A DNA stretch of 64,000 nucleotides from Polytrichum commune (Eukaryota; Streptophyta; Polytrichopsida; Polytrichales; Polytrichaceae): assembly GCA_950295325.1 (NCBI GenBank), contig OX485803.1, forward strand, positions 35,417,554 to 35,481,553, read 5' to 3'. The notes under the pieces are model-generated. The model saw only the letters and a program-made list of their open reading frames with translations, made no database searches and was not told where the DNA came from. Of the stretch, positions 1,248 through 64,000 are shown in pieces. Position numbers and translations under genes: made by a program. The stretch's first letter is position 1. Each line of letters starts with the position of its first letter.

Positions 1248-1499
1248 CTTTTTTGAAGGAAAAATAGTTTCCGGTGTCGTGTAAGAAATGGTTTAATAAG
1301 TAAATATAGTGTGAAATGTTTTGAGAGTAGGGTTTAAAACAAATAAAAATAAAACTAAGAAAAATAAAGGTATAGACAAAAGGGAGGGGGGAGATCAGAG
1401 GAATAAGGGGAGAAGAGTAAGAACCGTGGTTAGAACCATGAAACTTAGAGTCACATGCTCAGGGGGTAGGTGGCGCCAACTGGTAGTTACTTACCTAGT

Positions 1500-1625
1500 T
1501 TTCACCAGCAATGCCAAGCCACGTGGCCATTCGCCTGCTCATACGGGTCCAGAGGGTTTCGAACCCGGACCAGTGCTATGACGCTTGAAGCACTTTGCTA
1601 GTTGGGCTTTCGCGGCTTGGCATTT
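1500..1625 (-). repeat. tRNA-derived SINE-like head
   Basis: On the minus strand an A-box-like TAGCAAAGTGCTTCA (1600-1586) is followed about 30 nt later by a perfect B box GGTTCGAAACC (1565-1555). That spacing and order are those of a tRNA gene or tRNA-derived SINE. The outer sequence GCCAAGCC recurs inverted at both ends (about 1513 and 1622). It does not fold as a convincing tRNA cloverleaf, so a SINE head is the better call. No target duplication was found. Confidence 0.45.
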
Positions 1626-1814
1626 ATCAGAGCATGCTGAAGGGATTTATATTCCTATCTATTGTTTACATGTTTTTTATTTTTTATTTATTTAAGTGGA
1701 TTTGAATGGAAGAAAGAATCATATTTTTTGGGAAAGCTTCCGAATGACGTATTTTTACTAGAAAGTATTTAGGTTACAAGAAGAAAGACCATTTCAGAGC
1801 TTCACCAGTTTGAT

Positions 1815-2306
1815 GTGGTTATTTTGATTTTTTTCTTTTTTTTGAACATGTCGAATTGGAGAGTTTTGCCCCAGTCTCAAGATGAAGAACTTCAACCAGA
1901 GCTTGAGCTGAACTTTTCTTTATCTCAACTGCCGACTCGTACTCTTCTGCCACTTAGTCATTTACCACTGCATGAGCGTCCACAAGAAGAAGTTGGGCCT
2001 TCTCGGCCGTTGAAGCAACCTCGTGTGGAGCAGCGGTGACACGGAAACCTTCAACAAGATGCTCGTGCATTGGTGATTTTTTTGCAGGCTGGGTGTGTTG
2101 AACCTGACACTCAGGATGTGACATTTGGACGAATTTTTGAAGGCTTAAATAACGATCAATATTTTTGTTGTCTTAAGCCTGCGAAAGGAAGTTGCGGCCA
2201 TCAACGTTGGCTACAAGGTCCAGTTAATCCATTGTCTAAGGCTGATCGTGCGGACTACGTAGTAGTTATTCTTCGACGCATCCTCAAGTTCTTGCAGTTG
2301 GAGTGA
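1815..2306 (+). pseudogene. Unrecognised ORF with one in-frame stop
   Basis: A reading frame stays open from about 1815 to 2306 except for one TGA at 2037-2039, giving about 163 codons. The first good ATG is at 1848 (MSNWRVLPQSQDEEL). The N-terminal part is rich in Q, E, L and P. The part after the stop is compact and more globular (TFGRIFEGLNNDQYFCCLK, then SKADRADYVVVILRRILKFL) and ends in a proper TGA. A strong acceptor-like TTTTTTTGCAG lies at 2078-2088, but the 52-nt intron that would remove the stop breaks the frame. No family recognised. It may be a pseudogene, a recoded gene, or exons wrongly joined here. The flanks are repeats. Confidence 0.3.
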
Positions 2307-2308
2307 AA

Positions 2309-4185
2309 TTCCTTTTGGAATTCTTTCCAATATCATTTGGAAATATATTTGAGGTTATATGTTTAGTTTTTTTTAATGTTTTCAAACTTTATCTTGTGTG
2401 TTTGAAGTTTGGTAAATAAAAAGTAGACATAGTTTATCATTTAGGTTGAATTTTGATGCCTTATGGCTAAGATAAGGGAATGACAAGGATTAAAAGATAG
2501 ATAAGGATGAAGTAAGCCTATTTGGATTAACCAATGACTAGTTGGAGCCCATGTGATATAGGTTTGGATTAGTGTTGACTTTGGCGAGGAAGTTAAGAGG
2601 TCGACCTTCTCTTTCCTCAAGGAGGTGTGTTGACAAGGATTAAGGATAGATAAGAATTAATGATAGATAAGGATTAACGATATAAAGGGATGAAGTAAGC
2701 CTATAGGGGTTAACCAATGATTAGTTGGCACCTATGTGACATAGGTTTGGGCTAGTGTTGACTTTGATGAGGAGGCTAAGGGGTCGGCCCCTCTCTCCAA
2801 GGGGGTGTGGAGTTTTAGCTTTGATGTGTGTGTGTGTGGAGGGCGAGAACTCAGTGTGTACTTGGAATTTTTCTATGAAAATTTGAGAGTTTGTACATTT
2901 TGTCGGTGTGGTTCCAAAATGCTATAGCACGCTCCATTCGGACTTTGTATGTGAATTCTATGAGTGTTAGAGTGAAACTATGTTTGTTGTAAAGAAATTT
3001 AGAAGACCATGACTTCAAAAGCTTGTAGAAATTTATGTATAGAATTTTGTTTATGAAATTTGAGTGAGTGATGTATTATTGTACCAGCTCTTCATGAAGC
3101 TTTAAAATTCTTAATTTAGAATTTTGAAGAGAAATTTATGGCTTTCAAGGCAAGAGGGTGTTAAGCTGCCAACTAGATTCAACAATGAAAGTGTGAACCA
3201 ACTTCAACAAAGCATAGAAAATGTTTGGAAATGATTCTTAAAATGAAATTTGGAGAGAACATGTGTGATGTTGTTAGTTTTTCAGAGCTATCACTTGGCA
3301 TTAATAAAACTTAGATGAAACCAGAACGTCCTATGAAGTGAAGGGAGGTGCAGCTAACAATGAATTTGGGAGTATGACCTTTGACAAGCTATGAAACTTG
3401 GATAGTATTTTACTAACCTTTAATATCTATTTTACTTTGTTAAGCACTTTGATAGCTTTCCAAAATGCTAAAGCACTCTTGATTTGGAGTAATTATGTTA
3501 TTTTGGTGGTTCTTCAAAGTTTGGCTACAATTTTAGAGGGAGATCCGGGATTTTGAAGATATGTGTAAAACTTATATGGGATTGTATATATGATGTATTC
3601 AAAGATGAATACTTCTTACATTATCTTAGTCTCCCATGTCTTAAGCCAAAACTAATTGCAGCTAGAAATCCAATATTTCCCCAAAGCAAAGACTTCTCTA
3701 CACGATACCGGCTATGACTCTTCCTAAATATATGCAAACTCTTTTAATTTTATTGGTTATAGATGCCTCAACCTTATATTTACTTGCAACTTGGTAGGAG
3801 GAGGGTCAATACAGGTTGTCCACCACCTGATTGTTGGTGGGTGGGGCCACAATTCATGGAATTAAATGTTGTCGGTATAATTACACTAAAAAATAACATA
3901 AGGTAAAGGGTGCTAGAACCAACACCTATAAATGCCTCCCAATTGCCAAACTCTACTACCTTGAAGAGTGTCGGGGCCCATCAAGTGATGGTTTTAAAAG
4001 GGGGGAGGGGACAGTTTTGGCTTTTTTATTTACAAAGCCAAGAAGGTAGGTTCACAAAGCACAGAGGAGGTCGGTTCTAGGCATAAAGGGGCCAGTTCAT
4101 GGGATGCAAGGGGCAATAGTACAAAACATGGTCCTTTCAAACACTTGGCTTCGACACAAATTTTTTTGTATCAAAATCTATGAAC
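2309..4185. other. Spacer with a 183-bp tandem duplication
   Basis: No gene seen. About 2506-2640 and 2689-2820 are two diverged copies of one unit (both start GATGAAGTAAGCCTAT), offset 183 bp. Each contains the phrase 'ggtttggRttagtgttgac'. The remainder is AT-rich unique-looking sequence. Confidence 0.5.
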
Positions 4186-4189
4186 TTTT

Positions 4190-4630
4190 GGATCACTAGC
4201 GGAGCCATTTTCTCATGTGGACCACCAGTAATTTTCTACTATTAATCTTCTAGATTACAAACACATTCTTGTGGGCCATGGTATCGTCTTGCTATTTTGT
4301 TGGCCATGCAAAAGGTGCATGACATATTTGTTATCTTTTTGGCTACTTATTAGATATAGATTCCATTCAAGCTTACTCATAATATCTACATCCCATGTAT
4401 ACTACTGAATGTACAATATAAAGGAACTTATTATAATCTCTTTGTTTAATTTAAAGATTTTCTTATAGTGATTTATTTCCCCTCCTGCAAATTGTTATAT
4501 TTTTGGCTACTCATTCAAGCTTACACACTAGATTCCATATTTATTATTGAATAGCCATAAATGAATGTTCTATCTTTATTTATTTTTAGAGATCTTGTAG
4601 ATCTAGAAACGAGTCACCTTACTAGGTAAT
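4190..4630 (+). repeat. Dispersed repeat, copy 1 (inverted partner at 10.7-11.2 kb)
   Basis: The segment matches the reverse complement of about 10725-11160 over more than 400 bp, including GTTGGCCATGCAAAAGGT and CTTACTCATAATATCTACAT. Both copies end in GAGATCT-T-TAGATCT followed by a GAGTC motif. No coding frame is conserved. Probably an old transposon fragment of unknown class. Confidence 0.6.
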
Positions 4631-5540
4631 TACTAATGTGTGAGAGAGAGGGAATTATTGCCATGTTTTGTACATATTTTGTTCCAAAGAGGCATACTCT
4701 ATACATGTTCAAAAGAGCCATATTTGGTAGTAATGTCCAAGGGCAATTTTTAGAAAATGAATAATCTTACTTATCTCATTAAAAACCTATTCAACATGTC
4801 ATTAGGCCCTCCACACCAAAGTTGCCTAAGTTACATAGCAATCTCTCATACACATTAGTAATTACTTAGGATAGTGATTAATCCCCTCTCTTTCTTACAT
4901 TAATAATTTACTAGGAACAATGAATGGGGAAAATTGATGGTTCTTTACAAATGAACTGATTGCTATGGGCAAATAATTGGATATAGATGAGGGTAGTCGG
5001 AGGGCATCCAATTTATAAAGGGAGGAAACCAGATATCGACCGGTCTTCATTTTGAATTAACAGATAATTGATGGGTTGAAGGTGTAAACCCCTGGATATT
5101 AATTGTCCCCCCCAAGAGTATCGGCGGATCCTAGCCAGCCACCGAGGGTATGGGCCAGATCTCGTTTGGGGAGGATCATAGGGAGATAGTAGTCCCCTCC
5201 CCCTGTCAATTCTACACTCATTCTCACTCATTCTCACTCATTCCTGTTCTCCTTCGTTGTTTTTCCTCGTTGCTCTCCGTGGCTTCTCCTTTGTTGCTCC
5301 CTCGTTGCTCCCTCGTCGCTCCCTCGTCGCTCTACGTGGTTGCTCCCTCGCTGCTCTTTGTGACTTTTTTGCTAGATTTCTTAAGCATGGCTTCAAGGGG
5401 CTCTCAGTTGTGTGTGTTGCCTTTTATTGGATTTTGATTTGAGTAAGAGCAGCAGGAAATTGAGCCGAACTCCTAGTTTTCTTGGCTTTCGCCTACTTCA
5501 GTAACACTCCACCCTCTTCGGCTATGGTAGGTTTTCCGTT
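4631..5540. other. Spacer with low-complexity TTGCTCCCTCG tract
   Basis: No gene seen. 5245-5360 is a pyrimidine-rich imperfect repeat of GTTGCTCCCTCG/GTCGCTCCCTCG that opens several frames at once and so mimics a Leu/Ser-rich protein. 5217-5246 repeats 'tcattctcac'. This could be the leader of a retroelement, but no LTR ends were found. Confidence 0.4.
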
Positions 5541-5544
5541 CCTT

Positions 5545-6005
5545 ACATGTGTGAAACTTGTCATAGCTGCATCATCAACATGACTCGGTTGCAAATGACA
5601 TTCATCTTCTAAATTTTGTACATAATGTCCATGTGTAGAAAGTTATGAGAACTTGGTGGATATTTGAATTTCGGGTTGCATAGAATGTGTCATTTGATGC
5701 CCGCACATACAAAACTTCTCATGGCTACATCATCAACATAGCTCTGCTGCCAATGGCATTTGTCTTGGTGATCAAACCAAAACTTTGTACATCATGTTTA
5801 TGTGTAGAAAATTGCGGGAACTTGGTGGAGATGTGAATCCCAAATTGCATAGAATGTCTCCTTTGATGCCTACATGTACACAAAACTTGTCATGGTTGGT
5901 TCGTCAACATGACTTTGCCGAATATGACACACATCTTGGTGATCGTACCAAATCTTGTACGCAATGTTTATGTGTGTAGAGCTGCAAAGACTTGGTGATG
6001 ATTGG
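5545..6005. repeat. Three tandem copies of a ~160-170-bp unit
   Basis: Three diverged units begin near 5545, 5703 and 5871, each with AAACTT(G/C)TCAT(A/G)G followed by CAACATGACT-like and TTTRTGTGTAGA motifs and ending near GGTGATG. They are 75-85 percent alike by eye. No conserved frame. Confidence 0.6.
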
Positions 6006-9870: not shown

Positions 9871-10617
9871 TGTTACAAACCTCTCATCAACAATATCTCA
9901 AAGTAAGAATTGAAACCAACACCAATTTTATTTCTTCCTCTAAGTACAAACCGCAACCAAATAAAGTTTGGTCAAAAAAGCTCTACCACCCGACCATAGG
10001 AGAAAGACAAAAAAGATCCTCTCTCCTCCCCCGAGCTTCCTCTTATGCCGAAGCACTACTTTTACTTTCTATATTTACATATAGTAAAAGTATTCTATTC
10101 ATAGCTCTATCTCATAGTTCTACTATGAATCTTCTATCTTTGGTTCTTCTAGAACCTTCTTTCATCTCTTATCTCAATTCCATTCTTCCAATTGGAACTG
10201 TCTAATTCCAATTGGATTCATCCATTCTTCTTTCTAGTTGGAACTATCTAATTCCAACTAATTCATTCATTCAATCTTCTAATTGGAACTGTCTAATTCC
10301 AACTAGCTTTATCTATTCATTGAGAGTTGTCTAACTCCAATGAATAACATTCATCTTTCCAAATATGGAGTGGTCTAACTCTTGTGCACCTCATCGAGAG
10401 TTGTCTAACTCACGTGCACATGTTCTCAATTGGAATGGTCTAGTTCCAATGCACTAAATGCGGAGCTGTCTAACTCCAGTGCACATGTTGTCAATCTGGA
10501 GTTGTCTTACTCCTTTCCATTCATCCTCAACTGAGAGTTGTCTAGCTCTCATCTTTCTCTGCTTACACACTGGCACATGTAGTTAGAATATTCCTTAATA
10601 ATTCTAGTTACATTACA
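9871..10617 (-). mobile_element. Solo LTR, 747 bp, 5-bp TSD CCAAC
   Basis: The element is bounded by TG...CA (plus strand TGTTACAAAC ... GTTACATTACA) and by perfect 5-bp target duplications CCAAC at 9866-9870 and 10618-10622. No internal retrotransposon domain or second LTR is present, so it is a solo LTR left by LTR-LTR recombination. The minus orientation is inferred from the relative at 60.1-63.9 kb. In that sense a repeat-rich U3 (ten palindromic motifs, 10555-10190) precedes a TATA-like CATAAGAG (about 10040) and a CTCGGGGGAGGAGAG leader shared with the other copy. Confidence 0.8.
10188..10556. repeat. Ten spaced copies of palindromic motif GGAGTT-GTCT-AACTCC
   Basis: Ten imperfect palindromes of the form TTGGARYTRTCTAAYTCCAA occur every 35-47 bp; the spacers differ. 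Three use the variant TTGGAACT-TCTAATTCCAA, the others GGAGTTGTCTAACTCC. They fill the presumed U3 of the solo LTR. The same motif on the opposite strand occurs seven times at 60.22-60.50 kb in the related LTR. Each could bind a dimeric protein; this is inference. Confidence 0.8.
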
Positions 10618-14279: not shown

Positions 14280-15230
14280 CGGGATCAACAAACATACATT
14301 TCCAATTGTCATAACTATATCAAGAAAAGTTAGCTTTTCAATACAATTATTTGTGTTGATGCTTTCTCATAGATTTGCTAGTGCAATACAAGTTCCGTTG
14401 TGTCAAGCGTAATCAGTAGAAGTCGGAGGACATGAGAAACCGAACCGAGTGACACCCATATACTCTAGTGTGGTTAGTGTTATCGTACTTCACATTCTTA
14501 ATAAGTTGAACATGCATTCAATCAAGGGAACAACAAACATGCACTTCCGATCACCATAACTAAATCAAGAAAAATCCAAATTTCAATCCGGTTTTTTTTG
14601 TGTTGATGTTCATCGTAGATTTGCTAGTGCAACACAAGTCCGTTGTGTCAAGCATAATCAATAGAAGTTGGAGGACATGAGAAACCGAACTGAGTGACAC
14701 CCATATACTCTAGTTTGGTTAGTGTTATCGTACTTCACATTCTTAATAAGTTGAACATGCATTCAATCAAGGGAACAACAAACATGCACTTCCGATCACC
14801 ATAACTAAATCAAGAAAAGTCCAATTTTCAATCTGGTTTTTTTGGTGTGTTGATGTTCATCGTAGATTTGCTAGTGCAACACGAGTTCGTTGTGTCAAGC
14901 GTAATCAGTAGAAGTCGGAGGAAATGAGAAACCGAACCAAGTGACACCCGTATACTCTAGTGTGGTTAGTGTTATCGTACTTCACATTCTTAATAAGTTG
15001 AACATGCATTCAATCAAGGGAACAACAAACATGCACTTCCGATCACCATAACTAAATCAAGAAAAGTCCAATTTTCTAATCTGGTTTTTTTGGTGTGTTG
15101 ATGTTCATCGTAGATTTGCTAGTACAACATGAGTTCCGCTGTGTCAAGAGTAATCAGTGGAAGACGTCGGAGGACATGAATAAACACCCACATGCTTTTT
15201 AGCTTGGTTAAGTTAAGTGTTATCGTACTC
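14280..15230. repeat. Four tandem copies of a ~245-bp unit
   Basis: The phrase CAACAAACATGCACTTCCGA begins at 14531, 14776 and 15023 (steps 245 and 247), with a more diverged first unit near 14286. Each unit also has GATTTGCTAGTGCAACAC, a GTAATCAGTAGAAG-like stretch and GTTAGTGTTATCGTACTTCA. No long frame is conserved. A single diverged copy at 28.38-28.60 kb shows that the unit derives from the R2 dispersed family. Confidence 0.85.
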
Positions 15231-34141: not shown

Positions 34142-34201
34142 ACATGCTCTCCTCTTAATCATCCTCATCAATTTCTCTCTTCTTATCTTTGATCTTCAAT
34201 C

Positions 34202-35629
34202 ATGGATAATCGAAGAAGAGAGATTTTGTGCTCTCTTATGATCTTTATGGTTTTAAAGTATTTTATCGTTTCAACTATGGCGATACAAAAAACCATCATG
34301 TATCATCATAATGCTTCAATTATGATGATGGCATATTTTTTGTTTGGGAGCAAGGAGAGGGTGGTGTGGAAATTTGACCGGCCAAGTGGATATGTGTCAC
34401 AATTTCTTCTTGGATCATATAATGCAAAAATGTTCAAAGATCGTGTACGGGTGAATAAGCCTACTTTTTTTTATTTATGTCATTTGCTTGGACCCATATT
34501 AAGCAAGAAAGATACAAAATTAAGACTTTGTATTCCAATAGAGTGTAGAATTTCTTTGACATTGCATCGATTGGCAACCGGTGATACTTTGCATACACTT
34601 GCCGATTTGTATGGTATTTCAAAGTCAAGTGCTTCAATCATAGTGAGAGAAATATGTGAGGGTATTAAAAGTGTTTTGAGGCCTTTGGTTTTTCCTAAAC
34701 CAACATTATCAAGAATGAAGCAAATAGCTTTAGACTTTGAGAGTTTGCATGAAATTTCATACATTTTAGGGGCAATAGATGGGAGTCACATTCCAATCAT
34801 AGCTCCTAGTATAGATCATGCTTCATATTATTGTAGAAAGGGATTTTATTCGGTTTTACTTCAAGGTGTAGTGGATTCTCAATGCAAATTTTGGGATTAT
34901 GATTTTGGGTGGGCCGGTAGTATACATGATTGGGTCTTATTTCAAAAATCAGAAATCGGAAAGAAAACAATGAGTAGAACATTTTTACCATATAAGCTTA
35001 TTGGAGATGCTGCATATCCTATGCGTCCATGGTTCTATACACCATTCAAAGGAGAGAAGACTGGTCTTTCAAGGGAGAAACAACATTGGAATTTCATTCA
35101 ATCAAGCATAAGAATGGTAGTGGAGCGTACATTTAGAATGTTAAAGGGGAGGTGGAGGATTCTACTTAAGAAGATTGACATGCCAGTACGTAGCATTCCG
35201 GGTATGGTAACCGCTTGTCTTTGCCTTCACAATTTATGCCTAATTCATGCTGATGAGTTTGACATGAATTAGGTAAGAAGTGCTGAAGAAAAGTTGAAGA
35301 AAACATCTCTACAAATCTTTGGTGATTTTAGAGATGTGGATTTGTTCCATGTGTTAGAATCCGGCATTAGTGAGATGAGGAACATACAAAAAGAGGTAGT
35401 GCAAATAGAATTCAATGACATTGACACAAGTGAGATGGACATGGCTTTTGAGCTTGAAGAAAATGTTACTGAAACAAGAGGAAATATAGATGAGAGGACA
35501 AAAATTATGTTGAAAGAAGCAACTGAATTTCACTTGATGCTAGCAGATATCTATTACAAAGAGCAGTTGAAGAGAAAAGCTAAGGTAGTATTTCCAGAAG
35601 ATGTTAGCATGGAAAATGATGATATCTAG
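34202..35629 (+). CDS. PIF/Harbinger DDE transposase, one in-frame TAG
   Basis: Catalyses cut-and-paste movement of this element and its MITE relatives, in the nucleus. Codons 1-356 are open (34202-35269), then TAG at 35270-35272, then the same frame continues open to 35629, for a full length of about 475 residues. A helix-turn-helix-like stretch (LHTLADLYGISKSSASIIVR) precedes the catalytic core. The three acidic residues are visible: D in LGAIDGSHIPI, D in LIGDAAYPMRPWFYTPFK, and E in MVVERTFRMLKGRW, followed by CLCLHNLCLIHADEFDMN. The TAG follows DEFDMN, where a TGG (Trp) codon would be expected, so a single G-to-A change (C deamination on the other strand) explains it. The tail after the stop (VRSAEEKLKKTSLQIFGDF) is still protein-like, so the mutation is recent or read through. 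It shares its final stop with the convergent partner gene. Confidence 0.9.
35626..35629. other. Shared stop: one CTAG ends both convergent genes
   Basis: Plus-strand TAG is 35627-35629 (transposase). Minus-strand TAG is 35628-35626 (Myb-like gene). The two coding regions overlap by the palindrome CTAG, leaving no intergenic 3' space, so both 3' UTRs must lie antisense to the other gene. Confidence 0.9.
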
Positions 35630-36963
35630 AGCTTCTCAATAAGGCGATCAATTTGCTGATCCACCTTTTGAAGCAATTCATTAGTTCTAGCAAAGTGATC
35701 TAACATTGCTACACCGTTATCTACCATTTTACCAAAGTAATGCAAAGCTTGGTCCTGAAACTTGTTCTTCTTTGAGGCAGATGATGGTTCGGATTGATGG
35801 GTACTAACCGGTTGTAAAACATCGTCATTAGCATGTGCTGAATTTTCTTGTCCTCCTATACTAGTGATGTTCATTGTAGTAGCACTAACGTGTTTCATAA
35901 CGGAACCGGCCTGATGCCACCAATGATCAATTGAATCATAAAACTTACACTCATGCCGGTCATTCCCTGAAATCGAGTTAGTAAGTTTGTCCTCCTTATA
36001 TTGCTTGAAAACCATCTCGAATTTCTTTCGACATGCCTCGGCCGTGCGTGAAAATCCTGGAATTGTCACTATCATCCGTGCTTGAAGTCGAATCCATGTA
36101 TCAACACCTAATCAATATCAACAACACCATTAGTACCTTATATCCTCATGTGCACAAAAACATGATAAAATGCCCAAAAATTAAGCTCTAAGCCTTCAAA
36201 ATGGCTTTGAAAAAATTACTTCAGCATGTGGACCTAGAGTGAGAAGTGTATAAATACAATTCCAAGAGGATTGGGACACAAGGAGAAGGTGGGGATGAAT
36301 GGCTAACCCAAGTGGCTTGTGTTAAGGGTTGGCATGAGGTCCCCGGATCGATCCTTGTTGGAGGTATTTTGCCAAAACACCTCCAAGGCCAATTTCAAAC
36401 CTCAATGGGGGGGAAAGGGGGGGCCAATACTATGACCTTTACTCGACTACGAGCGAAGGCATCAGCATCGAAAGGCATTAGCCTTTTACTAAAATCCCTA
36501 ACTTCTTACAAAAAAAATTTAGCAACGTACCTTGTTTTTTTGCATTCTTCTCAAATTCTGTATGCATCTCCCCACGCATAGAAATTAATTGCTCAACTTC
36601 GCTATCCAACCAATTTTTCTTCTTCTCCCCTTCTCCTTCACCTTCTTCTTCACCTTCTTCACCTTCTACCTTCACCTTGGTGGCTCTCCTCTTGGCTGGA
36701 GCTTTCTTCTTTGCTATTGGACCTCTCTTCTTCCTTGTGGTCTCAATCGGCCGTTCCACAATTTCTACATCATTCTCTTCCTCTATCTCTCTTCCTCCTT
36801 CAAACTCTTCCCTCAAATTCCTTGCAAGGGGAGAAGGGTGTTGAACATAAGCCCTAAAAGCACTTCCTGGAAATTGCCTTGAGGGCTCAAAATAATTCTC
36901 ACTACCAATGAGGTCATCCTCATCTTGGCTACTACCAAACTGAAATTGTGAGTAACCAGCCAT
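35626..36963 (-). CDS. Harbinger Myb/SANT (trihelix-like) DNA-binding protein, two exons
   Basis: The second gene of PIF/Harbinger elements; in the family it binds transposon ends and helps bring the transposase to the nucleus. Exon 1 is 36963-36531 and exon 2 is 36107-35626. The intron 36530-36108 has donor CAAG|GTACGT and acceptor ATTAG and joins in phase (Gly split), giving 304 residues with no break. The start is MAGYSQFQFGSSQDEDDL; a longer frame upstream begins only with GTG. A basic stretch (RKKRGPIAKKKAPAKRRATK) looks like a nuclear signal and is followed by an E/G-rich linker. The trihelix spans the junction: KKKNWLDSEVEQLISMRGEM, then VDTWIRLQARMIVTIPGFSR and ACRKKFEMVFKQYKEDK. The C terminus (NELLQKVDQQIDRLIEKL) suits a short coiled coil. 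It looks functional, unlike its partner. Confidence 0.9.
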
Positions 36964-46813: not shown

Positions 46814-47016
46814 CTCGGGGGGGGGGGGGGGGGAGTAGTCATTGGTTGGAGTAGCAATATACGTGCGAACAAATCATTAACCCAAAGTAGAAATTTACAT
46901 AATGATAGCATGTGAAAAAAGAAGAGAATTGAAAGTAATACCCCTCTATAAAATAGTGGTTGTTCGCACCTATATCCTTAACTTTTTAACACACTGCCCC
47001 CCCCCCCCCCCCCGAG
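46814..47016. mobile_element. 203-bp MITE with G17/C17 terminal repeats, TSD TTATGCAT
   Basis: It starts CTC+G17+AG and ends TG+C17+GAG, so the inverted repeat is CTC followed by seventeen G. The 8-bp duplication TTATGCAT (46806-46813, 47017-47024) and clean restoration of the array unit prove an insertion. An 8-bp target suggests hAT. No coding capacity. Confidence 0.8.
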
Positions 47017-48008
47017 TTATGCATCCTTCCGCATCCATACGGCAACTACAATACTCGTGCTTATATACTATGGTTGCACACATACTAGGGGTCGTGAGGG
47101 TTAGTTTCCGTGTCGTCTTTCGAGCCTTTTAGATGCTAATGGGTATGTAGATTCCACCTGGTGGAATCTACATTTCGACTAGAATTCGGTGGGCAATTGT
47201 GGCCTACATGGAAGCTGACCCTAAGTGGCTTGTTTTCTTAATTGGACCTCTATGTTGGATTGATATGTGGTTATGCGTCCTCCCACATCCATACGGCAAC
47301 TACTATACTCGTGCTTATATACTATGGTCGCACACATACTAGGGTCTTGAGGGTTAGTTTCCGTGTCGTTTTTCGAGCCTTTTAGATCCTAATGGATATG
47401 TAGATTCCATCTGGTGGAATCTACATTCGACTAGAATCCGGTGGGCAATCGTGGCCTACAAGGAAGCTGACCCTAAGTGGCTTGTTTTCTTAATTGGACC
47501 TCTATGTTGGATTGATATGTGGTTATGCGTCCTCCTACATCCATATGGCAATTACTGAACTCGTGCATATATACTATGGTCGCACACATACTAGGGTCTT
47601 GAGGGTTAGTTTATGTGTCGTCTTTCGAGCCTTTTAGACCCTCATGGATATGTAGATTCCACCTAGTGGAATCTACATTTCAACTAGAATCCGGTGGGCA
47701 ATCGTGGCCTACATGGAAGTTGACTGTAATTGGCTTATTTTCTTAATTGGATCTCTATGTTGGATTGATATGTGGTTATGTGTCCTCCCGCATCCATACA
47801 ACTACTATACTCGTGCATATATAATATGGTCGCACACATATTAGGGTCTTGAGCGTTAGTTTCGTGGCGTCTTGTGAGCCCATCGAATCCTAATGGATGT
47901 GTAGATTCCTAATGAATCTACATTGTGACTAAAATTTGGTGGGCAGTACTAGCCTACATGGAAGTTGACCGTAATTGGCTCATTTTCTTAAACAGACCTC
48001 TACGTTCG

Positions 48009-49890
48009 TGTGAGGTCAAATCCACCACCCTTAGGCGTCCTAGTCCGGGTGATGGCTTTGAGAATCACATGTATTGTTTGTGTCTTGAAAATGCTCCCTT
48101 CACCTCCCAAGGCGTTCATGTCATTTTGAATCACTTTGTTTATAAATGGTAGCCTCTTGGCTTGTGGCCGAATTGGCCTTTTCAAGGGTCCAACCGGCGG
48201 CCTTGACAACACAAGCTCTCAAGGATATTCCCCTTTGGCCTTTGATTATCCTATCCTTCACTTTACCATTGCTAGAGTCTTCCAATTTCTCCATTGTTAT
48301 ATAAGTGATTGGTTTTTACCACAAAGGATGTAAGTGTTGAAAAACACTCCCTCCATGGTTAACCTCAAATACATTCGCCTTAGAGGCCACACATAACTCT
48401 AACTAGCCTATTGAGTCTAATCCTTTGTCTACCGCTAATGTAGCCCAATGTGGTCTTATTGTTCTACGTGCTAGCCACCACTAAGTGGGATTAGCCTCGC
48501 TAATCACCTAGACTACCTAAATATGATTAGTCAACCAGCCGAACAGTAGCCAACTCCCTTCTGTACTAGCGGCTTAGCCGAATAGTAGCTAGCTCCCTTC
48601 TGGGCAGAAGCTTGGCCGAACAGTAGCCAGCTCCCTTCTGGGCAGAGGCTTGGCCGAACAGTAGTTAGCTCCCTTCTGGGCCGAGGCTTGGCCGAACAGT
48701 AGCCAGCTCCCTTCTGGACAGAGGCTTGGCCGAACAGTAGTTAGCTCCCTTCTGGGCAAAAGCTTGGCCGAACAGTAGCCAACTCTCTTATGGGTAGAGG
48801 CTTGGCCGAACAGTAGCCAGCTCCCTTTTGGGCCGAGGCTTGGCCGAACAGTAGCCAGCTCCCTTCTGGGCAGAGGCTTGGCCGAACAGTAGTTAGCTCC
48901 TTTTTGGGCCGAGGCTTGGCCGAACAGTAGCCAGCTCCCTTCTGGGCAGAGGCTTGGCCGAACAGTAGCCAGCTCCCTTCTGGGCAGAGGCTTGGCCGAA
49001 CAGTAGCCAACTCCCTTCTGGGCAGAGGCTTGGCCGAACAGTAGCCAACTCCCTTCTGGGCAGAGGCTTGGCCGAACAGTAGCTAACTCTCTTATGGGCA
49101 GAGGCTTGGCCGAACAGTAGCCAGCTCCCTTCTGGGCAGAGGCTTGGCCGAACTTGGCCGAACAGTAGCCAACTCTCTTCTGGGCAGAGGCTTGGTGATG
49201 TATCTTCCCGTGTTGGTTGCTGCTGCCTTATACCACCCCCTTTATAACCACTAATCGGACATTCACCATGTCGTTTCTTTTCTTATTGAACTAATGAACT
49301 AACCTAACACACATATCATCACTAGCTTTTAAGAGCTACTCAACTAATTTCACTAATGATCAACTAACATAATTCCCTAACCTCACTAAGGTCTAACTAG
49401 TCCACACACGTGGCCTCCTAGCTCTAAGAGCTCGCTCCCTTTGGAAGACTTGAGAGAGAGAGGTAAAATGAGAGAAAAACACCTTAAGTAGCAAAGAGGG
49501 AGAGAGGGAGAGAGAGGGAGAGAGGTGAGGATAGGGTGAGAGGATTAGCACCTCCAATCACAATCCTTTAACCCTCTCCTCCAAAGTAGGGACTAATCTC
49601 CATCCACAAAACCTTCTCATTCCTAAACCAACAAGGTGGATCCAAAAGTGGGTATTTAACCCGCGGAGCTCACCTTGCCTCACCTTACCCCCCTACTCAC
49701 ATAATCAAGGCATTCTCTTATTGAAGTCAAACCTTGGAATAATCACACAACACCACCTAATGCCTAAACTTAATTCCACACCACACTTCACTCTTTTTAT
49801 GTTTTGTGAATAATCATAACACATCAAAGTCAAACTAAAATTGGTTTCGAAGAGTTAATCACCACATGTGGGCACCATTTTGGGCTCACA
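48009..49890. mobile_element. Solo LTR (or LARD-like element), 1882 bp, TSD GTTCG
   Basis: It begins TGTGAG and ends CTCACA, with a 5-bp duplication GTTCG on both sides (48004-48008, 49891-49895). Removing it rejoins a 250-bp array unit. No gag or pol domain is evident, so a large solo LTR is the simplest reading. It contains the 38-bp minisatellite (48534-49191), a TTTATAACC at about 49233 and purine-rich (GAGAGG)n at 49495-49530. Orientation not settled. Confidence 0.75.
48534..49191. repeat. Minisatellite: 17 copies of a 38-bp unit
   Basis: The unit starts GCTTGGCCGAACAGTAG and ends CTCCCTTCTGGGCAGAG. Starts fall at exactly 48572 + 38n up to 49142. The first unit is diverged, and the last carries a 12-bp internal duplication (GCTTGGCCGAAC + TTGGCCGAAC). 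Variants CCAGCTC, TTAGCTC and CCAACTC alternate, so higher-order copying has occurred. 38 is not a multiple of 3, so frames through it are artefacts. Confidence 0.95.
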
Positions 49891-51179: not shown

Positions 51180-51720
51180 GGCTACAAATTGCCGCTGGTT
51201 GGTGGTTCCCGAGGGCTACATAAGAAGCAGTGTCCGGGGAGAATTTTGAGCACAATCGGTCAAAATCCAGGTGTTCGCAAGTCCAACCGATTACAAGTTG
51301 TGATCCTTTGGTTTGTCTTTACTAGTTCGAGGTGTACTCCGTAGATTGCTCTAGAATGATGGGTAATTTTCCTGAAGCATTCGACCGGTTAATTATTTCT
51401 GAAATTCAACCAGTTCATCTGTCTAGATTCCTCTAGAATGATGGGTAATTTTCCTGAAGCTTGAACTTCGACCGGTTAATCATTTCTCAGATTCAACCGG
51501 TTCATCTGTCTAGATTCCTCTAAAGTGATGGGTAATTTTCTTGAAGCTTGAACTTCGACCGGTTAATCATTTCTCAGATTCAACCGGTTCATCTGTCTAG
51601 ATTCCTCTAAAATGATGGGTAATTTTCCTGAAGCTTGAACTTCGACCAGTTATTTCTCAAATTCAACCGGTTCATCTGTAACTACCCGTCGGTTCTGCTC
51701 GTTCCTTGATAAGAAGACAT
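51180..51720 (+). repeat. AACCGGTT-family repeat with four 87-bp tandem units
   Basis: Units of 87 bp begin near 51343, 51423, 51510 and 51597, each TAGATTCCTCTARARTGATG, then GGTAATTTTCCTGAAGC, CGACCGGTTAAT and CAACCGGTTCATCTGTC. Single diverged copies occur at 17.6 and (inverted) 45.4 kb. The paired ACCGGTT boxes are palindromic. Confidence 0.75.
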
Positions 51721-59580: not shown

Positions 59581-60224
59581 CACTAAGGGGTTGTTTGCAT
59601 CATGGACCACGGAGTTGTCCCATGTCAAATGACATTTTTTCATGGTCACACTTCCATGGTCGAATTTATGAAAAATGAAACATTTATAGCATGTGGGCCC
59701 CTTGTTAGGTATACACCGAAAGTGTACCAATAGTAGTGACCATGCATTGAAATTGGATGTGTTGATTATTTTTAAATTATGCCCAAATATGGAAGTTTTG
59801 GAATTGTTTCATGTTTTACATTCTCTCATTCTTTCTCACTTCTTCGCTCTTAACTACAATGACGTTTGGCAAATAACTGAGAAATCAAATATTAAAACGG
59901 CACTTTTCAACCGTAGTCCCCTAACTTTTGCAACAAAAGAACCTCATCTGCCTCTCTTACCACAAAATTTGTTGGCCCATGAAATGGATAGTGTAGGCCC
60001 AAAAATGGGCCTTTGGGGGACCTCAAGCTCCACGATCACTCTTATAATTTTCTCCTTGATGTAAACCGAAGTGGTCCCAAGACAAGTTCAATAACCAATC
60101 ACATATTTTAGGGGAGCAAGGGTGTGATATACCATGTGGTTCTTTAATTAAGATATTATTGATTGATGGATTGAAAAAAAAATGATAATTTACCATGCTT
60201 TGATGTATTTAGCATGTGAGCAGA

Positions 60225-60492
60225 CATGGATTGGAGTCAGACAACTCCAAGGGAAGAAATGGGCTAGACAACCCATGGACATAGTGTGCACGGGAGTTAG
60301 AGAACTCCTGATGGAAGATCTTGGCTTTGGAGTTAGACAACTCCAACTGGGAGTTACACATCTCCCTTTTGAAGACCTTTGTGTTGGAGTTAGACAACTC
60401 CAACTAGAAGCTAGGATGGATGTTATTCAGTAAGGTTAGACAAACTCTCAATGGATAGATGAATCAAGTTGGAATTAGACAGTTCCAAGTAA
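60225..60492. repeat. Seven palindromic GGAGTTAGACAACTCC motifs
   Basis: The best copies read TTGGAGTTAGACAACTCCAA (about 60328 and 60383); others are degenerate (GGGAGTTACACATCTCCC, TTGGAATTAGACAGTTCCAA). Spacing 30-50 bp. Same motif as the 10.2-10.55 kb cluster. Confidence 0.8.
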
Positions 60493-60742
60493 AAGATTGT
60501 GATCAAGCCAAAAGATAAGAAAAGATTATACAATGCAATGATCTATGCAGGCCATAAATTTGACACCCTAGCCAAATTTCCAGGGGACACCCTGCTCCAA
60601 TTTTTGGGTGTCCTCATAAATTTCTCTTAATTTTTTTTTGTCAAAATAGGTACAATTTTGAAAAATATATAATATCATTTCAAAATTTCAATTAAAAATA
60701 AAAAAAATCACTACATATCATACCTTGCAATGCAAATCAAAC

Positions 60743-61477
60743 CTACAAGCGGCGGCCTTTCATAGCACACCACTTTACCCATACTTGTTCAAAGTCAATG
60801 GCCTCTATGTGGATTTTTGCCATTGCAACTCTCATTTGTGCTTCCAAAGTCTCTAATACCAAACTACACCGTAAAGTAGATTTAATATGATTTTGAGTAG
60901 AAAATCCTCTCTCACAAGAAGCTGTACTAGCAGGAATTACAAGAACAGCTTGCCACAACTTTGTCATATGAGGATATCTTCCAACATAGTCCAAATTGGA
61001 AGAATAAACCATCCAAGCTTGGTGCATTTTAAGACCACCACATGAAATATGAAGTGTATCCAAAAAACCTCGAAGCTCTGATTTTAAACCACGCTCATCA
61101 AAAAGATTCCCTCCATTAGTGCAGAAGTGGTCAATGAAACTCTGAAGCCATAAACGAGCATTTCGATGAAGAAGTGTCAAGTCTGTTGAAAAACAGACAG
61201 GGCTAAATAGCTTAGCTGCATTGAAGAGCTTCAAATCAGGAAATCGTTGCTGCAATGATTCTATCACCTTAACCACATAGGCCTGTGCAATCACCTTGCA
61301 CCCATGGAGGGTACCATCACCACCAAACTCAATTGCATGAGGCAATGGTGCATAATGCAATATATGTGAATGCACCACTCCTGTAGAGTCTTGAAAATGG
61401 ATCTCACCACCTCTAGAAATGTCCAAAAATTGTGCCACAAATTTGGTATCCGCACCAAACTCCTCATATTCATACAC
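60743..61477 (-). pseudogene. hAT transposase C-terminal domain, left copy
   Basis: A 244-codon frame identical in translation to 62743-63477. It contains LHGCKVIAQAYVVKVIESLQ, a middle part with LLHRNARLWLQSFIDHF, and the dimerisation signature KLWQAVLVIPASTASCERGF followed by STQNHIKSTLRCSLVLETLE. The frame opens at a GTG with no early ATG, and the zinc finger and catalytic core of the DUF4371-type family are missing. It is therefore either the last exon of a deleted transposase or a dominant-negative-like fragment. The domain normally makes transposase dimers. Confidence 0.75.
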
Positions 61478-61756
61478 CAGTGATTCAATGGGAATTGCTC
61501 AAAACAGTTTTGGTTGAAAAGCAAGAAAAACTCACATTGGTAGCAAGAAAAAATTCATTGAGTGGAGGATGTGGAGGCACCACGGTGATAGAAACATTTG
61601 CCTCGCCATGTTCCTAGTTAGTCTCGCTCTCCATTCACCGTCCTAGCTCCCGGTTACAAAGGAAATTGCAAGAGCAAAGTTGAACTTAAGTATGTGAGTG
61701 AGTGTAGGAAGTTCTCCTACTGTTATGGGTTATGTTTTCCGGATACTTGAGCTGCA

Positions 61757-61764
61757 CTTTATAG
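61757..61764 (-). promoter_or_regulatory. TATA-like box, left arm
   Basis: CTATAAAG on the minus strand about 280 bp before the left ORF; mirror image at 62456-62463. Confidence 0.3.
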
Positions 61765-62077
61765 TACTCAAGTAATACATGTCATTTCAATTTCTAGTGT
61801 GTCAATTGACGTGTGATTTTTTTCTTCACAAGTCACAGTACGTGTCAATTTCTAGAATGTGCGTGTCAATTGACATGCATTTTCTTTTTGTGCAAGTTTT
61901 TGCGTGTCAAAAAAGAAAAACTTGCAAAAACTTTGTCAAACATATGCGCTGATAGGCCCTACAAGTACAGGGGACACCCTGAATTTTTTTTGGGTGTAAA
62001 AAGGACACCCTTGTAGGATTTTTGGGTGTCCTCGGGGACACCCTGTTTGAGATTTGGGTGTCCTAGGACACTCTAGG

Positions 62078-62142
62078 GGAATATGTATACATATAATGAA
62101 ACTTGGGGATAAAATTGACACCCTGGGGGGTGTATTTTGCTT
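62078..62142. other. 65-bp asymmetric centre of the palindrome
   Basis: The only unpaired part of the inverted repeat. It contains GGGGATAAAATTGACACCCT, which resembles the outer terminus (CCATAAATTTGACACCCTAG). The inner end of the right-hand hAT copy therefore seems to start here (about 62103), and the left copy lost its last ~35 bp. Confidence 0.6.
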
Positions 62143-62455
62143 CCTAGAGTGTCCTAGGACACCCAAATCTCAAACAGGGTGTCCCCGAGGACACCCAAAA
62201 ATCCTACAAGGGTGTCCTTTTTACACCCAAAAAAAATTCAGGGTGTCCCCTGTACTTGTAGGGCCTATCAGCGCATATGTTTGACAAAGTTTTTGCAAGT
62301 TTTTCTTTTTTGACACGCAAAAACTTGCACAAAAAGAAAATGCATGTCAATTGACACGCACATTCTAGAAATTGACACGTACTGTGACTTGTGAAGAAAA
62401 AAATCACACGTCAATTGACACACTAGAAATTGAAATGACATGTATTACTTGAGTA

Positions 62456-62463
62456 CTATAAAG
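62456..62463 (+). promoter_or_regulatory. TATA-like box, right arm
   Basis: CTATAAAG within AGTACTATAAAGTGC, about 280 bp before the right ORF. Confidence 0.3.
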
Positions 62464-62742
62464 TGCAGCTCAAGTATCCGGAAAACATAACCCATAACAG
62501 TAGGAGAACTTCCTACACTCACTCACATACTTAAGTTCAACTTTGCTCTTGCAATTTCCTTTGTAACCGGGAGCTAGGACGGTGAATGGAGAGCGAGACT
62601 AACTAGGAACATGGCGAGGCAAATGTTTCTATCACCGTGGTGCCTCCACATCCTCCACTCAATGAATTTTTTCTTGCTACCAATGTGAGTTTTTCTTGCT
62701 TTTCAACCAAAACTGTTTTGAGCAATTCCCATTGAATCACTG

Positions 62743-63477
62743 GTGTATGAATATGAGGAGTTTGGTGCGGATACCAAATTTGTGGCACAATTTTTGGACA
62801 TTTCTAGAGGTGGTGAGATCCATTTTCAAGACTCTACAGGAGTGGTGCATTCACATATATTGCATTATGCACCATTGCCTCATGCAATTGAGTTTGGTGG
62901 TGATGGTACCCTCCATGGGTGCAAGGTGATTGCACAGGCCTATGTGGTTAAGGTGATAGAATCATTGCAGCAACGATTTCCTGATTTGAAGCTCTTCAAT
63001 GCAGCTAAGCTATTTAGCCCTGTCTGTTTTTCAACAGACTTGACACTTCTTCATCGAAATGCTCGTTTATGGCTTCAGAGTTTCATTGACCACTTCTGCA
63101 CTAATGGAGGGAATCTTTTTGATGAGCGTGGTTTAAAATCAGAGCTTCGAGGTTTTTTGGATACACTTCATATTTCATGTGGTGGTCTTAAAATGCACCA
63201 AGCTTGGATGGTTTATTCTTCCAATTTGGACTATGTTGGAAGATATCCTCATATGACAAAGTTGTGGCAAGCTGTTCTTGTAATTCCTGCTAGTACAGCT
63301 TCTTGTGAGAGAGGATTTTCTACTCAAAATCATATTAAATCTACTTTACGGTGTAGTTTGGTATTAGAGACTTTGGAAGCACAAATGAGAGTTGCAATGG
63401 CAAAAATCCACATAGAGGCCATTGACTTTGAACAAGTATGGGTAAAGTGGTGTGCTATGAAAGGCCGCCGCTTGTAG
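62743..63477 (+). pseudogene. hAT transposase C-terminal domain, right copy
   Basis: Same 244-residue frame as the left arm. In-frame codons continue a little upstream (AIPIESLVYEYEEFGADTKF) to a TGA at 62719-62721, and GAG|CAATT there could be a splice acceptor, so this may be a terminal exon. The C-x-R-G-F and hydrophobic positions of the hAT dimerisation domain are kept (ASCERGFSTQ), and no stops interrupt it, unlike the older hAT copies at 0-1.2 and 7.4-9.4 kb. Confidence 0.75.
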
Positions 63478-64000
63478 GTTTGATTTGCATTGCAAGGTAT
63501 GATATGTAGTGATTTTTTTTATTTTTAATTGAAATTTTGAAATGATATTATATATTTTTCAAAATTGTACCTATTTTGACAAAAAAAAATTAAGAGAAAT
63601 TTATGAGGACACCCAAAAATTGGAGCAGGGTGTCCTTGGGACACCCAAAATTTGGGACAGGGTGTCCCCTGGAAATTTGGCTAGGGTGTCAAATTTATGG
63701 CCTGTTAGATACTATGGATAAAGAAGGATAAGACTAGGAGTCCCTTTGGAATATAAGAGAGAGCTCGGGGGAGGAGAGGGGATTTTTCTTTTGTCTCCCT
63801 CCTATGGTTGGGTGGTTGGAGCTCATAGAGGACATTGTATTTGTTGAGAGATTTTTTTTTATAAAATATTTTATTGAAGGTTCACAATTGTTTTCTGGCG
63901 TGTATTTGTTCTTGTATTGAGGTACGTGACAAAAGGACTCCTTCATGGTCAATGATGATGTAAACAACCCCTATGACTTGAAGGAGAAGACAAACTTCCA

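Follow-up and report, generated by a model that had tools for sequence, protein, structure and literature searches.

Organization of the palindrome

The window (the whole stretch of DNA analysed, 64 kb long, C1:35417554-35481553) contains two inverted copies of a hAT element that together form a palindrome of 3.16 kb, with an interspersed host repeat on either side. The features of this locus are listed below.

60150..60547, + strand: interspersed repeat of the host, to the left of the two arms, with at least 73 matches in its own genome including itself (40 of 663 candidates scored)
60540..60547, + strand: GATCTATG, outer copy of the 8-bp target site of the left arm
60548..62077, - strand: left arm, inverted nonautonomous hAT copy; outer 3' end intact, last 40 nt of the 5' end lost, one 32-bp unit fewer
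60548..60568, + strand: 3' terminal inverted repeat of the left arm (CAGGCCATAAATTTGACACCC), 21 nt identical in 17 of 19 relatives
60743..61498, - strand: 251-aa open frame in the left arm, C-terminal transposase fragment with the hAT dimerisation region
62078..62081, no strand: GGAA, putative filler at the junction where the 5' end of the left arm was lost
62082..62085, + strand: TATG, surviving half of the inner GATCTATG target-site copy
62086..62107, + strand: host-repeat DNA between the insertion points, matching L052 at 19 of 22 positions, from alignment with empty-site paralogues
62109..63704, + strand: right arm, nonautonomous hAT copy; 5' tip (~6 nt) lost, 3' end intact, two 32-bp units
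62457..62462, + strand: TATAAA upstream of the first ATG of the right arm, mirrored in the left arm (motif match only)
62722..63477, + strand: 251-aa open frame in the right arm, the same as that of the left arm
63636..63670, + strand: stretch containing the additional 32-bp subterminal unit found in the right arm; exact borders ambiguous among tandem units
63684..63704, + strand: 3' terminal inverted repeat of the right arm (GGGTGTCAAATTTATGGCCTG)
63705..63712, + strand: TTAGATAC, outer copy of the target site of the right arm, the inner copy being lost
63705..63931, + strand: host repeat right of the pair, ~230 bp of it matched by L037, L038 and L039

The two arms lie head to head, with their 5' ends inward and their 3' ends outward. 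Complementarity is 100% over 1493 nt (60585-62077 against 62143-63635) across a spacer of 65 nt, and the outermost 66 nt (60548-60613 and 63639-63704) are 95% complementary. Element-wise alignment of the left arm (60548-62077, 1530 nt) with the right arm (62143-63704, 1562 nt) reveals 0 differences in 1530 positions, which places a 95% upper bound of 0.2% on their divergence, and the sole difference in length is one 32-bp subterminal unit that is missing in the left arm. These results agree with the original prediction, which gave the same coordinates, arms of 1530 and 1562 bp, a 65-bp centre and a single 32-bp difference, and which ascribed the near-zero divergence of the inverted hAT copies to a recent event or to gene conversion. 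The predicted subterminal arrays are also present, as there are 16 exact copies of GGACACCC/GGGTGTCC within 60548-63704 and one elsewhere in the 64-kb window. A chance origin is excluded by the length of the arms alone, and the 3.16-kb near-perfect palindrome is confirmed as real.

Other features were noted in the window. A DDE_Tnp_4 transposase frame (E 1.3e-32) is located at 34193-36111 beside a Myb/SANT-like frame (E 1.2e-5, just below cut-off), and we take this element to be PIF/Harbinger-like. Tandem arrays occur at 14281-15179 (245-bp units), 47016-48006 (252 bp), 48538-49153 (38 bp) and 51342-51679 (87 bp). A search of the 64-kb window against Rfam at gathering scores gave no match, and a tRNA scan of the same DNA gave no tRNA.

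Coding content and the hAT family

Both arms share one 251-aa stop-to-stop frame with its C-terminus directed outward. The hAT dimerisation domain that had been read in each arm was recovered by Pfam as Dimer_Tnp_hAT (PF05699; E 3.9e-8, above cut-off), and this C-terminal frame is all that the arms retain of a complete DDE transposase. Single-sequence AlphaFold prediction for the 251-aa frame gave no usable model (mean pLDDT 39), and one scan of the frame against viral_contigs gave no match. A PDB sequence search returned six matches at E 0.2-0.92 (two Hermes transposase entries, two labelled only "transposase", and two from enzymes or factors of other kinds), which were not used as evidence.

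The family was characterized by searching the genome of the window itself (407.8 Mb, 64 contigs). The arm query gave at least 68 matches (best 40 of 1050 candidates scored) and the query with the palindrome centre at least 82 (best 40 of 125 candidates scored); the copy number of the family is a lower bound, with at least 65 loci listed. Twenty loci were fetched for analysis of the ends, and 19 were examined at both ends, L028 holding one end only. All 19 are single hAT elements of 1.1-1.65 kb, and none of these 19 is palindromic. Their 5' ends fall where the right arm of the window begins. The 5' tip CAGGGCATAAAATTGACACCC is exact in 12 of the 19 and carries small changes in the other seven, while 17 have the 3' tip GGGTGTCAAATTTATGGCCTG without change; L017 and L027 each deviate by one base from the 21-nt sequence of the left arm. 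The family thus includes related copies with the same termini, as had been anticipated. It also possesses the 8-bp target-site duplication (TSD) of the hAT superfamily, which matches at 8/8 positions in 15 relatives and at 7/8 in two, and is absent from L021 and L023 (best matches of 4/8 and 6/8, with 56 offset pairs tried for each).

A genome search for a full-length hAT element had been suggested, and a full-size family member of 3943 nt, L048 (C2:33443000-33452900, 1301-5243), was found, flanked by GCCGAGAA on both sides as its TSD. L048 is 97.9% identical to the window arm over a 967-column match. Its transposase frame is split into 524 aa and 134 aa where a single frame would be expected. 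The longer part has sub-threshold Pfam matches to zf-C17orf113 (E 1.4e-4) and DUF4371 (E 0.011), and the shorter part matches Dimer_Tnp_hAT above cut-off (E 1.4e-8). Taken with the single-element relatives, L048 indicates that the arms are nonautonomous hAT copies with an internal deletion.

At another locus, L051 (C5:33417000-33426000, 2946-4574), a 543-aa open frame has 63 bp in common with the frame of the arm, and the same place matches 190 bp of the internal segment of L018 at 99%.

The subterminal 32-bp unit varies within the family: 8 of 30 copies have one unit, 20 have two and 2 were unclassified. On a tree of 28 scored copies the unit changes 8 times, compared with a shuffled mean of 7.2, and consequently the difference between the two arms tells little. 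The 3' ends of L010 and L015 hold single or partial units with different breakpoints, suggesting that the unit was probably lost more than once.

Host repeat and empty sites

The listed paralogues of the host repeat, other than itself, are 66-94% identical to it, and a distant paralogue lies inside the window at 9985-10381 on the minus strand. Fourteen host paralogues were tested for both flanks of the palindrome. An empty site is present in 10 of them (L037, L038, L039, L052-L057 and L063), whereas L059, L060 and L062 differ at this place and L058 has no flank pair. The two flank matches are separated by 60-64 bp in 8 of the 10 empty sites and by 124-126 bp in L037 and L038, the wider spacing being due to an extra repeat. 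GATCTATG is exact in 8 of the 10 and TTAGATAC in 4 of the 10, the others holding near variants. The empty site of L052 reads GATCTATG-TATATAGATAAGGAAACTTGGGTCTAAG...GTATCTC-TTAGATAC, and the order in the window is GATCTATG-(left arm)-GGAA-TATG-TATACATATAATGAAACTTGGG-G-(right arm without its 5' tip)-TTAGATAC. Alignment of the window with these empty-site sequences, together with the retained TATG half-copy, places the insertion of the left arm at GATCTATG and that of the right arm at TTAGATAC, ~62 bp apart.

The same alignment accounts for most of the 65-nt centre, which consists of host DNA (62082-62107) and the 5' end of the right arm itself (62109-62142), and reveals what has been lost. The left arm lacks 40 nt of its 5' end, as counted from the printed sequences of relatives and window, and is accompanied by a full outer copy and half of the inner copy of its target site. 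On the right, ~6 nt of the 5' tip, about 40-50 bp of host DNA and the inner target-site copy are gone; only the outer copy remains, and a TSD of the right arm therefore cannot be demonstrated. Two details count against a reading with two insertions, namely the GGAA filler and base 62108, which is G in the window where C is expected.

A palindrome that arose in place from a single element by fold-back DNA synthesis, or that arrived as one unit, would account for the perfect identity of the arms and for the short centre. Such an origin is highly improbable, as there are two target sites ~62 bp apart with host DNA in the centre, the whole palindrome is not enclosed by a TSD (GATCTATG on one side and TTAGATAC on the other), and 0 of the 19 relatives examined are palindromic. 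Long perfect inverted repeats are also a known type of artefact, arising by fold-back of an assembly or of a read, and an assembly fold-back had been raised in the original prediction. This explanation is more remote still: the arms end exactly at the 3' termini of the family, they differ by a 32-bp unit, the flanks are collinear with the empty sites, and the centre holds the expected piece of host DNA. Neither insertion as one unit nor fold-back is supported, since the empty host site matches both flanks and part of the centre and has two separate insertion points.

Two further candidates were rejected. The best match of the centre outside the window (among the best 40 of 125 scored) is C4:1939524, at 89%, with a 13/14-base resemblance just upstream of the 5' tip of that copy. 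This likeness was taken as coincidence, the C4 copies having TSDs of their own, and the flanks of the C4 copies gave no match to the host repeat of the palindrome. The sequence TAGAT, found just outside both 3' ends and considered as copied flank, was dropped as a probable chance occurrence.

Divergence of the arms and linked pairs

Divergence within the family was examined by pairwise comparison of 29 copies (406 pairs), with L048 excluded from the alignment. The median divergence is 1.76%, and the window arms are the closest of the 406 pairs, followed by L018/L025 (5 differences in 1105 positions) and L033a/L033b (3 in 598). If the arms were ordinary members diverged by 1.2%, the probability of 0 differences would be ~1e-8.

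Clustering of the family was tested by typing 65 listed loci and setting aside the one on C24; random placement then served as the null model for the 64 that lie on the seven large contigs. Two pairs of these 64 listed loci are within 1 kb of each other, where random placement gives a mean of 0.0075, and four pairs are within 20 kb, against a random mean of 0.19; 0 of 400 simulations reached the latter number. The window pair, which was the reason for testing, is part of both counts, and leaving it out reduces them to 1 and 3, respectively. Clustering at 100 kb is weak, with 5 pairs among the listed loci, the window pair again included, against a random mean of 1.05, a count reached in 3 of 400 simulations.

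The second pair within 1 kb is also head to head. L033 (C4:1934500-1944400, 3733-5649) comprises copies of 635 and 599 nt about 680 bp (0.7 kb) apart, each with its own TSD, with facing 5' ends intact and with a shared internal deletion; as in the window, the copies differ by a 32-bp unit. The members of L018/L025 are 16.5 kb apart, and their differing internal deletions weaken the case for a local hop. L064 and L065 are 15 kb apart and are not close in sequence, the nearest relative of L064 being L026 (7 differences in 456 positions). As a result, a clean local hop is apparent in only two of the four linked pairs.

The position of the window arms as the closest of 406 pairs and the presence of a second head-to-head pair on C4 make a sister copy that hopped locally, over a very short distance, the favoured source of arm identity. 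In the main rival, the two arms descend from different family members that entered the repeat in separate events 62 bp apart. Breaks at the facing ends would then have set off gene conversion from arm to arm, which would have erased every difference but the outermost 32-bp unit. Conversion could equally yield 0 differences, losses are visible at both inner ends, and the occurrence of both one-unit and two-unit forms in the family (8 and 20 of 30) means that the difference between the arms could be parental. Two family members within 1 kb of each other would, however, rarely arise by chance, and a unit that is often gained and lost can differ between sister copies, as it does in the L033 pair. 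An origin by conversion is consequently considered unlikely, though not far-fetched.

Proposed history of the locus

It is thus quite likely that two sister nonautonomous hAT copies inserted head to head in one older repeat and that their facing 5' ends were subsequently lost. First one copy, perhaps the right arm, would have inserted at TTAGATAC; the sole basis for this order is that the two-unit form is the commoner. Next, a sister copy, oriented the other way, would have re-inserted at GATCTATG by local transposition over ~62 bp. Later the facing 5' ends would have been cut, possibly by transposase, or broken, and rejoined with loss of 40 nt of the 5' end and half of the inner target-site copy on the left-arm side, and of ~6 nt of the 5' tip and ~50 bp of host DNA on the right-arm side. 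Loss at both facing junctions of terminal inverted repeat and TSD is the trace expected of breakage there. The end state would be the near-perfect palindrome of 3.16 kb now seen, in which both 3' ends are intact but neither 5' end is, and which is probably incapable of renewed transposition. Sister-chromatid transposition was also considered as the direct maker of the palindrome and was set aside, as it should leave inverted flank DNA and none is seen here. A survey of the general, largely open-access literature found no prior report of a hAT palindrome resolved in this way.

Comparison with known systems

The first role that had been put forward for the locus is a "double-Ds"-like one. A double Ds consists of one copy inserted inside the other in inverted orientation. 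The window pair resembles it in having two inverted hAT copies, but these lie side by side at two host points ~62 bp apart, with host DNA between them, and both facing 5' ends are damaged. Transposition generally needs an intact 5' tip. As no intact 5' end remains, a double-Ds role for the window pair in breakage or further movement is unlikely. Multiple ends are a property of chromosome-breaking Ds in the available part of the literature (PMC3260210), and alternative transposition of Ac/Ds is described there for a 5' end acting with a 3' end (PMC3744419, PMC8225341); because both facing 5' ends are damaged, such 5' and 3' end pairs are missing at the palindrome. Closely linked Ac/Ds pairs of maize, as portrayed in the same sources, are similar in being two nearby hAT copies whose facing termini are the places of breakage (PMC8225341, PMC3744419). 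They differ in that 5' ends act with 3' ends there, whereas the facing ends of the palindrome are both 5', and in that the palindrome is known from its sequence alone.

VANDAL21 elements are Mutator-like and do not belong to hAT. The accessible text on a head-to-head VANDAL21 pair in Arabidopsis met1 gives spacer deletion as the commonest rearrangement, with borders that are not always at the element ends (PMC12312487). That pair likewise comprises two elements of the same family head to head, with a spacer of ~200 bp, but the events described are somatic and in mutants, compared with one product in an assembly here (PMC12312487). In an Arabidopsis case an inverted repeat of 598 bp also arose beside a hAT element, Ds, although that repeat is made of DNA from outside the element and adjoins a single Ds (PMC1978519).

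The second role that had been put forward is that of a Mu killer-like source of hairpin RNA silencing its own hAT family, which would be compatible with an origin by two insertions. The locus shares with Mu killer a long inverted repeat of transposase sequence whose two outer element ends are of the same type (PMC3440606). Mu killer differs in being described as a single MuDR that has an internal deletion and a partial duplication, with TIRA ends outermost and a centre that was not sequenced (PMC3440606); the locus here holds two insertions with 3' ends outside and is known at the level of sequence only. The 1.5-kb identical arms span the C-terminal coding region of the family, and the full-size L048 matches the arm at 97.9% identity over 967 columns. 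The coding strands of the arms point outward, however. Any promoters within the arms would yield sense RNAs that are identical for the two arms, and a hairpin would therefore depend on read-through transcription that starts beyond the palindrome. To the left, one nearby frame, at 59690-60061, has no Pfam match; to the right (L061) there are four frames of at least 100 aa. The part of the Mu killer report that was available describes two short antisense transcripts in silencing plants, and not the proposed read-through from a flanking gene (PMC3440606). A hairpin role for this locus, which its sequence would permit, is doubtful.

Implications

The striking 3.2-kb near-perfect palindrome can be read, by way of the empty sites, as ordinary history: two short-range insertions followed by loss of ends. 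Its past can be traced, and events of this kind are broadly familiar. Furthermore, the window pair, with its facing ends lost, and the C4 pair, with its ends intact, offer a natural before-and-after comparison for head-to-head hAT landings. A speculative and rather improbable extension is that ultra-short hops in opposite orientation, over tens to hundreds of bp, may regularly build long perfect palindromes in this hAT family, and that destruction of the facing 5' ends would then fix these as hairpin loci able to feed siRNA against the family of at least 65 listed loci; the pair at C4:1.94 Mb would represent the state before and the window pair the state after. The palindrome gives a defined place for asking whether chance arrangements like this one trigger small-RNA silencing of the whole family.
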